The position numbers were made by a program, and so were the translations under genes. A DNA stretch of 64,000 nt from Streptomyces paludis (GTDB lineage: Bacteria > Actinomycetota > Actinomycetes > Streptomycetales > Streptomycetaceae): assembly GCF_003344965.1 (NCBI RefSeq), contig NZ_CP031194.1, positions 2,976,001-3,040,000 on the forward strand, read 5' to 3'. The notes under the pieces are model-generated. The model was not told the DNA's origin and searched no databases. It saw only the letters and a program-made list of their open reading frames with translations. Below, piece by piece: positions 36,444-40,000 of this stretch; the stretch's first letter is position 1, and each line of letters opens with the position of its first letter.

Positions 36444-36626
36444 CCTAGACGAGTAAGTCCGAAGTAGCGTCGTCCGCCCCTTGGGGCGGGCGGGGAAGTG
36501 TCAGGTGCGTGCAGCCGCAAGGCGGAGGAGGGAGGCGACGCGGAGCGTCGTCGACCGACGACAACGCCGCGGATGTGCGTGCGTGGCGCTTCCCCGCAGA
36601 CGGGACTTCGGACTTACTCGTCTAGG
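36444..36626 (+). ncRNA. Candidate structured RNA upstream of the NLR cassette
   Basis: Outer arms 36444-36465 and 36605-36626 are a perfect 22-bp inverted repeat. Inside, 36468-36471 pairs with 36599-36602. A side hairpin (CCGCCCC/GGGGCGG) is at 36474-36489. Positions 36490-36518 pair with 36569-36597 over 29 positions with only two mismatches. Six of those pairs are G-U wobbles if the plus strand is the RNA; on the minus strand they would be A-C mismatches. That asymmetry favours a plus-strand RNA with a three-way junction. It ends 40 nt before the trypco2 ATG, so it may be its 5' leader or a separate RNA. No similar Rfam family recognised. Confidence 0.5.
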
Positions 36627-36666: not shown

Positions 36667-37029
36667 ATGACCGGCGCCGACGACCGGACCGAGGACCACG
36701 AGTTCGACGGCATCGAACTCGCCGACGCCATCCAGTCCGTACGCGACCAGCTCCTGGACGCCGCCACCCGCGCCACGGGCCAGCCCATGGCCTTCGAGGT
36801 CGGTGACATCCAGATGGAATTCACGCTGGAACTCCGCAAGGAGATCAAAGGCGGCCTCAAGGTCAGGGCATGGGTGGTGGAGGCGGGCGCGGACGGCGCC
36901 CGTACCTCGGCCCACACCCACAAGGTCGCGTTCACGCTGAAGCCGCGGGACGCCCGTACCGGAGCGCCGTGGCAGGTCGGCAACGCGGACCGGGGCAGCA
37001 CGGCCGGCTTCGGCGGCCCGGGGCGGTGA
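36667..37029 (+). CDS. Trypco2-domain protein (trypsin co-occurring domain 2)
   Basis: 120 residues forming one domain. The N-terminal helix is IELADAIQSVRDQLLDAA, followed by beta strands MAFEVGDIQMEFTLELRKE, GGLKVRAWVVEAG and HKVAFTLKPRD. This pattern matches the trypco2 family, small proteins found next to trypsin-like proteases in NTP-dependent biological conflict systems. It probably binds or is cleaved by the protease encoded next. The stop overlaps the GTG of the next gene (GTGA), so they are translationally coupled. The gene lies 40 nt after the structured element. Confidence 0.85.
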   Translation: MTGADDRTEDHEFDGIELADAIQSVRDQLLDAATRATGQPMAFEVGDIQMEFTLELRKEIKGGLKVRAWVVEAGADGARTSAHTHKVAFTLKPRDARTGAPWQVGNADRGSTAGFGGPGR

Positions 37030-40000
37030 CCCTGGCCCGGGTCGTCGCCGTCCTGGGCGCGAGCCAGGGCACGGGGGTACTGCTCACCCCGCGCCTGGTC
37101 CTCACCTGCGCGCACGTGCTGGGCGACGGCAGCGGCGACGGCAGCGGACCGTCCGTCGCCCATCCGCAGCGCACGGGAAGCGTCGCCGCCGCCGTCCAGT
37201 GGCGGGACGACGGTCTCGACATCGCGGCCCTGATCACCGGCGAGGACATCATCGGCCCGGAACTGGCCGCTCCGCTCGGCATGATCCGTGTCGGCACCCT
37301 CGCCACCGAGTCGCCCCTGCCGCACTGCGCGATCACCGGCTTCCCCGCCGTCCAGCGGTACGGGGACGACGGCGCGCTCGAACTCGACCAGTACCGCGCG
37401 ACGGTCCTCCCGGCGGCGGGCACCCTGCGCTCCGCGCTGGTCTGTGAGCTGGACCACCCGGCGGCCGAGGACCGCCACGACGGCACCACACCGCTCGCCG
37501 GGCTCTCCGGCGCACCGGTCTTCGCGGGGAGCGTGCTGCTGGGCGTGGTCACCCAGGTCCCGCGCGGGCGCGGCCATCTGCGCGTCGAGGGCGTACCGAT
37601 GGACCGGATCGTCAGCAGCCTCCCGGTGAAGCTGTTCCCGTTGAAACACGAGTCGCTCACCGGCCATCACCCGCGGGACCGGCGTTTCGAGGAGGAGTAC
37701 GCGCGGGCCGTCCGGGCCCGCTACCGCAAGACCCGGATCTTCGGCATCGACGAACTGGGCGCGGGCGAGTCCACCTGGGACCTGGACACGGCGTATCTGA
37801 GCCTGGAGGCCGGCCGGCGGGACCGCTCCCCCGGCCGGCCCCGCCGGATCGAGGAACTGCTGACGGAGCGGCCCCGTACGCTCCTGCGCGGCGAGGCGGG
37901 CGCCGGCAAGACGACCCTGGTGTGGTGGCTCGCCGCCCACGCCGCCTGCGGCACCCTGGGCCCCGAGCTGGCCGGCCTCAACGGCCTGGTCCCGTTCGTC
38001 GTCCCCTTACGGACCCTGCACGCCCGTGGACTCGGCCCCCGAGCCCCACCGCGCTCCACTCCGTCGCCCAGATCCTGACGGACGACCCGCCGCCCGGCTG
38101 GGCGCGCCGTGTCCTGTCTGCGGGCCGGGCGCTCCTGCTGATCGACGGCGTGGACGAGATCCCGCCGGGCGAGCGCGAGGAGGCCCGGCGCTGGCTGGGC
38201 GAACTGCTGGACCTCTACCCGCACATCCACTGTCTCGCCACCGTCCGGCCGCTCGCCGTCGAGGACGACTGGCTCCGCTCGGAGGAGTTCGAGGAACTCC
38301 AGCTCCTGCCCATGCGGGACAAGGACATCGAGGCGTTCGTCACCGCCTGGCACCGGGCGGCCCGCCTCGAATGCGACCGATACGCGGACCAGCACCGCGC
38401 CGCCGCCGAACGCGCCGAACTGGACGGCCTGGAAGCGGAGCTGAAGGAGCGGTTACGGCAGAACACCGCACTGCGCACCCTCGCGCGGACCCCGCTGCTC
38501 TGCGCGGTCATCTGCGCCCTGCACCGCCGCCGGGGCGGCCTCCTGCCCGACACCCGCTGGGAGTTGTACCGCGCCACCCTCGCGATGCTCCTCGGAAACC
38601 GGGACGCCCAGCGCAGGATCGGCAGCCCCGAAGGCATCACCATGGGCTTCGAGGAGCACCAGGAGCTGTTGCAGTGTCTGGCGGTCTGGCTGGTCCGGGC
38701 GGGGCGGGCGCAGCTCTCCCGCGCGGACGCGGAACAGCAGATCGAGGTGGCGCTGCGACGGCTGCCCAAGGTCAGGGAACAGGGATCGGCGGCGACGGTT
38801 CTCCGGCATCTGCTCAACCGCAGCGGTCTGATCCAGGAACGCGCGGACGACGAGATCCAGTTCATCCACCGCACCTTCCAGGACTATCTGGCGGCCCGCG
38901 CGCTCATCGAGGGCGGCTCGCTGCTTGAGCTGCTCCAGAACGCCCCCAACGAGCAGTGGCGGGACACGGTCCTGCTGGCGGTGGGCCACTGCCGTCCGCA
39001 CGAGGTACGGAGACTGGTCGAGGGCCTGCTCGCGGACGGGGCGGCCTCGTCCTACGGCGGCAGACGCGCGGACCTGTATGTCCTCGCGGCGCGCTGTCTG
39101 CTCAACACGGTCGTGGTGGACGAGACGGTGGGCGAACGGGTCGCCGACCGGATCCGTACGCTGCTGCCGCCCCGGGACAGCGGGCACACGGACGCGCTGG
39201 TCTCGCTCGAAGACTATGTGCTGCCGCTTCTCCCCGAACCGTCCGGCCTCGGCGTCAGGGACGCCGAGGAAGTGGCCGAACTCATCTGCATGGTGGGCGG
39301 ATCCAGCGCCATTCCCTACGCCAAGCGGTTCTCCCTGCACGAGAGCGTGCACGTACGGTCCACCATCGCGGCAAGCTGGTTCCAGTTCCCGACGGAGCGG
39401 TACGCCCGTGAGGTACTCGCCGGGATGTCTCTGACGGGCCTGGCCATCAGCGTATCCACGCCGGACAGACTGCGGCTGCTCCCCGGCCTGCCATCCCCGT
39501 CGGCGGTCGATGTCTCCATCGACGCCTCCTCCTCGCAGCTGGGTGAGTATCTCCCCACCGCGGGATGCGAAGAGCTGAACGTCTACGGCAACGCGGTGCT
39601 CCGGGATGTGTCGTTCCTCCCGGGACTCACCGACGTGCGGAGTCTCAGTGTCACCAAGTGCCCCGCCCTGGAGGACCTGTCCGGGCTGGTGAACACGCCG
39701 CTCACCGCTCTGGAACTGGACGTGGGCACCCTCGGCGAGGAAGAACTCGACGCTGTCCACCGGATCCCGTACCTCCGGAGTCTGACGCTCACCTACGGCA
39801 GCTCGTCCCCCGGCCGGCTGCCCGCCGCCCACCCCGGGGTGAGCTACCTCCGACTGGACAGTCGGCAGCCGCTCGATCTCTCGTCCCTGGACGCGTGGTT
39901 CTCACTGCGGGAACTCGATGTGACCGTCGACTCGTGCGACTGGCTCACCCTCGGCTCCCCCGGTCCTGTCCGTGCGCCTCAGGTCGCCTCGCTCACGCTC

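Follow-up and report, generated by a model that had tools for sequence, protein, structure and literature searches.

A MITE-like element with a structured core upstream of trypco2 in Streptomyces paludis

Bacterial MITEs are usually seen as passive remnants of one IS, and many of them are near-palindromes. ERIC/RU, BOX and Correia elements are near-palindromes of 100-200 nt, scattered between genes and potentially able to fold as RNA; to our knowledge, each of them is confined to one lineage. CORE-SINEs of animals, which are retrotransposons, combine a conserved central domain with exchangeable ends that recruit different mobilisation machinery.

In the window, a 64,000-nt stretch of the Streptomyces paludis genome (NZ_CP031194.1, positions 2,976,001 to 3,040,000), we are confident that positions 36444..36626 form a MITE-like element, whose parts are given in Table 1. 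Taken as a whole, the explanation that we consider very probable is a non-autonomous element moved in trans, with a core common to many elements, exchangeable ends and a plus-strand fold maintained by selection.

Table 1. Parts of the element and the adjoining gene, in window coordinates
Feature	Coordinates	Strand	Evidence
MITE-like element, whole, subfamily A; core defines plus strand	36444..36626	+	fold; two other full-length copies, 77% identity
Left CTAG (target or duplicated target)	36445..36448	.	CTAG at both ends
Left terminal inverted repeat; 21 letters equal to the end of a 979-bp IS982-family IS	36445..36465	+	end matches
Subterminal arm: internal loop, 4-bp helix, side hairpin CCGCCC/GGGCGG; common to subfamily B (by eye)	36466..36489	+	fold, copy alignment
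Conserved core plus its flanking helix; scores 88.9 bits with covariance model R1, of which this copy is itself a row	36492..36592	+	covariance model
Tandem U-G/G-U wobble pairs, conserved, left half; partners 36580-36581	36506..36507	+	alignment, fold
Core motif, left half, GCAAGGCGGAGGA	36517..36529	+	sequence, alignments
Apical hairpin region; sequence variable; takes secondary palindromic inserts in some other copies	36530..36556	+	fold, copies
Core motif, right half, CGACAACGCCGCG	36559..36571	+	sequence, alignments
Right terminal inverted repeat	36605..36625	-	end matches
Right CTAG	36622..36625	.	CTAG at both ends
trypco2 gene; neighbour, outside the element	36667..37029	+	Pfam PF19631

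Fold, copies and ends of the element

The plus strand of 36444-36626 folded with an MFE of -136.5 kcal/mol, against a mean of -79.4 (sd 4.2) for dinucleotide shuffles (z -13.7), and none of 200 shuffles matched this energy; the minus strand gave -106.8 kcal/mol (z -10.5). A preliminary description made from the letters had claimed a perfect 22-bp outer helix, a short second helix, a side hairpin, a 29-position inner helix with six plus-strand G-U pairs and a 40-nt gap between the element and trypco2. Each of these was found: the outer helix had 22 of 22 Watson-Crick pairs, the second helix four pairs and the side hairpin six, the inner helix had 27 pairs (21 Watson-Crick and 6 G-U) with G/G and G/A as its two unpaired positions in the sequence, and 40 nt separate the end of the element from the trypco2 ATG at 36667. 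The structured stretch is real, as first described.

A BLAST search of the element's own genome (8.45 Mb, one contig; E of 0.001 or less) returned 36 places, of which three lay on the 36444..36626 copy itself and several were arms of a single copy. The 22-letter end had 11 matches at three or fewer mismatches in this genome, two of them in the copy itself, and the reversed control had none. Covariance model R1, built from 14 core centres including that of this copy, matched 30 cores in the genome, again including this copy. As expected of a MITE, the terminal inverted repeats agreed in 22 of 22 letters, several dispersed copies were present (besides this one, two full-length BLAST matches and another 27 core matches), and the element encodes no transposase, 183 nt being too short for one; no ORF of at least 100 aa lies inside it, and three overlap it. 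The preliminary description had counted scattered copies elsewhere in the genome against its functional reading, and dispersed relatives are what we observed.

Alignment of the copies separated at least five groups with different ends around one common centre, which reads in order GGTGC..., GCAAGGCGGAGG..., an apical hairpin of free sequence, CGACAACGC... and GTGCGTGCC. Some copies carry other short palindrome-like inserts, either in the apical hairpin region (L034:1441-1580, L037:1373-1506 and L041:1279-1420) or on the 3' side of the core (L048:1501-1620), and the model still matches the rest. At L030, about 1452-1532, we observed an arms-only derivative that lacks the core and has matching letter changes in both ends, a pattern that suggests arm-to-arm correction.

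The tip CTRGACGAGTAAGTCCGAA was present in 12 of 295 genomes of the genus, and in G282, G256 and G183 it occurred as facing pairs 979 bp apart. The 979-bp unit encloses an IS982-family transposase (NCBIfam NF033520, 190 bits against a cut-off of 130) in which a DDE domain was found; a full IS with the same ends as the element is therefore present in three other genomes of the genus. The blastn comparison of the element with this IS showed only the 21-22 bp ends in common, with further hits at E 0.4 and worse. An internal-deletion derivative of the IS was ruled out because nothing but these ends was common below E 0.1. Among the 11 end matches in the element's own genome, no facing pair near 979 bp was found, so the helper IS is absent or diverged there, and the 36444..36626 copy may be an immobile relic, since no IS with its ends was seen in its genome.

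Other core elements, for example in G185, carry the end GGGCCTGTCCGGCGGATC. An end one letter off this sequence bounds a 955-bp unit, with seven facing pairs in the element's own genome, and the ORF inside the 955-bp unit at L036 belongs to the IS5 family (NF033580, 136.6 bits against a cut-off of 110). Given IS982-type and near-IS5-type ends on core elements, one core is combined with the ends of at least two transposase families. CTAG stands on both sides of the element; at aligned element-free sites the flanks have diverged to the point that the exact junction and any target duplication are unreadable. A possible intermediate for the exchange of ends was seen at L108, near 1371-1600, where a core element and an IS982-type right end meet directly at one CTAG common to both.

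Covariation and strand asymmetry of the core

For the core alignment we used 69 matches, 66 of them distinct, found in Streptomyces and other Actinomycetota; because the alignment was fitted to the model, it is biased in favour of the structure. In it, 94.2% of cells were standard pairs, compared with at most 49.9% paired for slid versions of the structure, and 29 of the 33 pairs showed changes on both sides. All five covariation measures were reached by 0 of 500 shuffles, a comparison that related sequences can exceed. The covariation among homologues that the preliminary description had proposed as a check was thus found in the core. The tandem U-G/G-U step (columns 15/176 and 16/175) was kept in most sequences; its alternatives were C-G, U-A and G-C, and it was never unpaired.

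Covariance model R3 had 45 rows. In the pan-bacterial alignment, most of which was chosen by exact core letters, 85.0% of cells paired under the structure of R3, and the covariation score was 0.546 against 0.168 in shuffles (0 of 500). Among the five measures for the pan-bacterial alignment, three were reached by 0 of 500 shuffles, one (further pair types) by 14 and one by 498; double-change pairs showed no excess, numbering 10 against 10.0 in shuffles. Letter conservation is by construction in both alignments, since one was fitted to the model and the other was mostly picked by exact core letters.

On the plus strand of the core, G-U pairs outnumbered A-C by 347 to 25. Leaving out the five wobble-rich pairs gave 103 to 24, and thinning the rows at 85% identity, which left 30, gave 136 to 14. 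Outside the core, the arms leaned the same way: in 62 non-redundant elements from the wide scan we counted 174 G-U and 61 A-C (45 elements above, 4 below), and in 31 non-redundant Streptomyces elements 163 and 29 (30 above, 1 below; 26 of the 58 rows were dropped as too alike and one was skipped). In free folds, obtained for 76 of 81 elements, the plus strand folded better in 64 of 76, a result to which the core itself contributes. G-U pairs in these free folds of whole elements were near-equal on the two strands (428/5181 plus, 389/5090 minus), so this measure shows no asymmetry.

A DNA palindrome under strand-symmetric mutation would give no excess of G-U over A-C, whereas single-stranded DNA would, so the asymmetry does not prove RNA. 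From the covariation and the excess of G-U over A-C, we are fairly confident that a plus-strand, single-stranded fold of the common core is under selection. The earlier argument for a selected plus-strand RNA over a DNA palindrome therefore holds for the fold and its strand, and RNA is not proven over single-stranded DNA.

Spread and placement of the copies

Within the genus, R1 matched 104 of 121 sampled genomes, the element's own included, with at most 32 candidates scored per genome. Matching plasmid records numbered 27, all from Streptomyces. Among 149 Actinomycetota genomes, R1 matched seven from outside Streptomyces, all weakly (best matches 34.5 to 43.6 bits). Both GCAAGGCG and AACGC are retained in the seven matches shown from outside Streptomyces, at unpaired positions too, though the model itself rewards these letters.

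An exact-letter scan with the pattern GCAAGGCGCGAGGAG N18-42 CGACGAGNAACGC, derived from the non-Streptomyces matches, returned at least 120 stretches, with 80 loci among the matches listed; by our own arithmetic, the expected chance count for 27 fixed letters is far below one. Record titles among the matches listed named Pseudomonadota, Acidobacteria, Verrucomicrobia, Planctomycetota, Omnitrophota, Kofleriaceae and Actinomycetota, that is, at least seven phyla, all of which except Pseudomonadota rest on MAGs. The Pseudomonadota isolates listed were Massilia, Ottowia, Novosphingobium, Sphingomonas, Polaromonas and Alloalcanivorax, and two contigs labelled Klebsiella are probably misbinned. Many loci among the matches listed had, by eye, long inverted arms of differing sequence, ended by TAG/CTAG. 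The arms are evidence here; conservation of the core letters is not, since the scan demands them.

Matches to R3 numbered 1 to 40 per genome in 12 genomes, all picked for having a hit, and some of them are opposite-strand neighbours of one element, which inflates the counts for G541 and G547. In these two genomes, neighbouring + and - hits had a double-core-like appearance. In the Actinomycetota sample, R3 matched 32 of 296 genomes and 22 of 192 genera. A phage collection and viral contigs contained no match to the element. A blastn search of plasmids, phages and E. coli with the 55-nt pan-bacterial core was likewise without a hit, which is weak evidence given the short query and its variable hairpin.

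The placement of 67 non-redundant Streptomyces copies was determined with a codon-based gene finder, which was compared with nine annotated plasmid loci; of the annotated plasmid regions considered, three listed no genes and two were repeats of others. Copies lay between convergent genes (21), between tandem genes in antisense (21) or sense (12), between divergent genes (10) or inside a predicted ORF (3). The difference between 12 sense and 21 antisense copies was not significant, and a simple mRNA function is disfavoured because the copies show no bias to the sense of genes. In 15 of the 67 rows, the end of a neighbouring gene on the minus strand falls 28 nt beyond the core, in the element's right end; judging from these sequences, the CTAG there can supply the TAG stop of such a gene.

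With dnaA taken as the origin, 102 of 149 copies in 18 Streptomyces genomes pointed towards the replication origin (p 8e-6), and without the element's own genome 81 pointed towards it versus 38 (p 1e-4). Fourteen genomes followed the trend, three went against it (G209, G241 and G194) and one was even. The count used only the best-scoring matches, except for all 30 core matches of the element's own genome, and left out 12 rows of G151, G158 and G199, in which dnaA was not mid-way in one long contig; of the six such rows of G158, four pointed towards the origin and two away. This bias was observed despite near-alike ends, which a transposase should hardly distinguish. With this orientation, the strand that folds more strongly would lie on the leading-strand template, which is what selection against a strong hairpin on the lagging template would produce.

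Competing explanations and known systems

The preliminary description had proposed a regulatory leader, decoy or trigger RNA of the trypco2/trypsin-NACHT system. The adjoining gene does encode Trypco2 (PF19631, 93.8 bits), and the element has the same orientation as this gene and ends close upstream of it. We compared the region with 392 genomes of the genus and took the best 29 other loci with about 1.5 kb on each side. An element was found at only one of them, L136 in G303 (53.6 bits); it belongs to another subfamily, with different ends, and lies just upstream of trypco2 at L136:1278-1437, so that, with the present copy, 30 loci show two distinct insertions upstream of the gene. The other 28 of the 29 had no match at E 0.01, although three of these had weak matches at E 0.1 to 0.8, and at L134, L135 and L151, in three other genomes, the upstream region of trypco2 aligns without the element. 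The 29 other core matches elsewhere in the genome also speak against such a link, as does a -10-like TAGGCT at the right border, seen by eye only, which would leave the element untranscribed. Consensus promoter and terminator scans of the region found nothing, so that an insertion touching the trypco2 promoter would be a guess only. At the element's own locus, moreover, a frameshift inside the NACHT domain breaks the trypsin-NACHT frame at 37980-38150, where the homologues at L134, L135 and L151 are open; this is either a pseudogene or a sequence error. With relatives scattered through the genome and one of 29 other trypco2 loci carrying an element, the proposed link is not supported. We regard it as largely refuted and very improbable, and the trypco2-NACHT system is, as far as these comparisons indicate, merely the landing site of this copy.

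What the core does is a separate matter, and on the sequences at hand we give even weight to its acting as RNA and to its not doing so. It could instead work as single-stranded DNA, folded into a hairpin that serves as a signal during replication, transfer or transposition. The orientation towards the origin and the lack of a significant sense bias would fit such a signal, and G-T pairs would favour one DNA strand over A-C just as G-U pairs do; however, IS982- and IS5-family transposases, the partners found here, act on double-stranded DNA, and the stronger-folding strand would lie on the leading-strand template, the less exposed one. We therefore rate the single-stranded DNA signal as possible but somewhat unlikely. 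An ordinary MITE family would account for the core similarity by descent and for the G-U excess as a by-product of selection against a hairpin on the lagging template or in mRNA. Near-palindromy is common in MITEs, and if the stronger hairpin were avoided on the lagging template, copies would be oriented as observed, but a bias of 68:32 seems too weak to produce 45 elements against 4. Descent and avoidance would also leave the exchanges at the two wobble columns, with no unpaired cell, to be explained, as well as the retention of the two core strings in the seven non-Streptomyces matches, though the model rewards these. Across genera and phyla the structured core is kept even though the ends that bind the transposase are exchanged, so something besides the transposase seems to select it. 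An ordinary MITE family is thus improbable, and a core with no selected role beyond descent and hairpin avoidance is, by the same sequences, unlikely. Conserved internal loops, covarying helices, strand specificity and spread over phyla are what an RNA acting on RNA polymerase, Rho or the ribosome (e.g. by put-like antitermination) or a self-cleaving ribozyme would show, either of which might soften the cost of insertion; by eye, the motif GAG..CGA with its CAA bulge is also compatible with sheared G-A pairs. On the other hand, copies lie in antisense no less often than in sense, and Rfam, which includes ribozyme families, gave no match, leaving this more specific role doubtful, less probable than an ordinary MITE family.

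Indeed, a search of Rfam at gathering and permissive thresholds gave no family over its cut-off on any element, in agreement with the preliminary description, which had recognised no known RNA family. The L031 copy matched mir-1397 at 31.5 bits, where the cut-off is 70, and we took this as chance. In the parts of the open-licence literature covered, no description of the element was found, and the publications containing one of the letter strings were unrelated by title (osteoclasts, ArsH).

For the favoured explanation, a non-autonomous element moved in trans, we propose the following course. A MITE-like element would have inserted at a CTAG between genes, immediately upstream of trypco2; we infer that an IS982-type transposase, working in trans on the 21-bp ends, most likely mobilised it. 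It would belong to a wider set in which one structured core is joined to ends of different transposon families, and selection would keep the plus strand of core and arms foldable as a single strand. The core, as RNA or as folded single-stranded DNA, may meet a host factor common to most bacteria, which would let the element persist. The dispersed copies, matching ends, exchangeable ends, covariation, strand asymmetry and presence in several phyla are the steps of this course that can be read from the sequences. It raises a testable question, namely what the core binds or does, and in some Streptomyces and other bacteria the covariance model annotates, in each genome, dozens of intergenic elements that had no annotation before.

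REP/REPIN elements with RAYT (PMC3116915, PMC2817692, PMC3733652) are likewise dispersed bacterial palindromes, but REP elements are shorter, at 20-40 bp (PMC3733652). The element resembles the MITEs of IS982 and IS5 transposases in being short and dispersed, with IS-equal terminal inverted repeats and CTAG ends; it differs in that only the 21-22 bp ends are common with the IS and one core occurs with the ends of different IS families. Like ERIC/RU, BOX and Correia elements, it is a dispersed intergenic near-palindrome foldable as RNA, but unlike them as generally described, its core spans phyla and has exchangeable ends and strand-specific covariation. The nearest analogy is with CORE-SINEs, which share the conserved centre and exchangeable ends, although they are eukaryotic retrotransposons, whereas the partners here are DNA transposases. 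We tentatively suggest, with somewhat less weight than we give to an RNA role as such, that a single nucleic-acid domain, most likely an RNA touching a universal bacterial machine, may have spread domain-wide as a hitchhiker of unrelated DNA transposases, with a constant core and changing ends; it would then be a bacterial counterpart of the CORE-SINEs and an RNA family new to Rfam.
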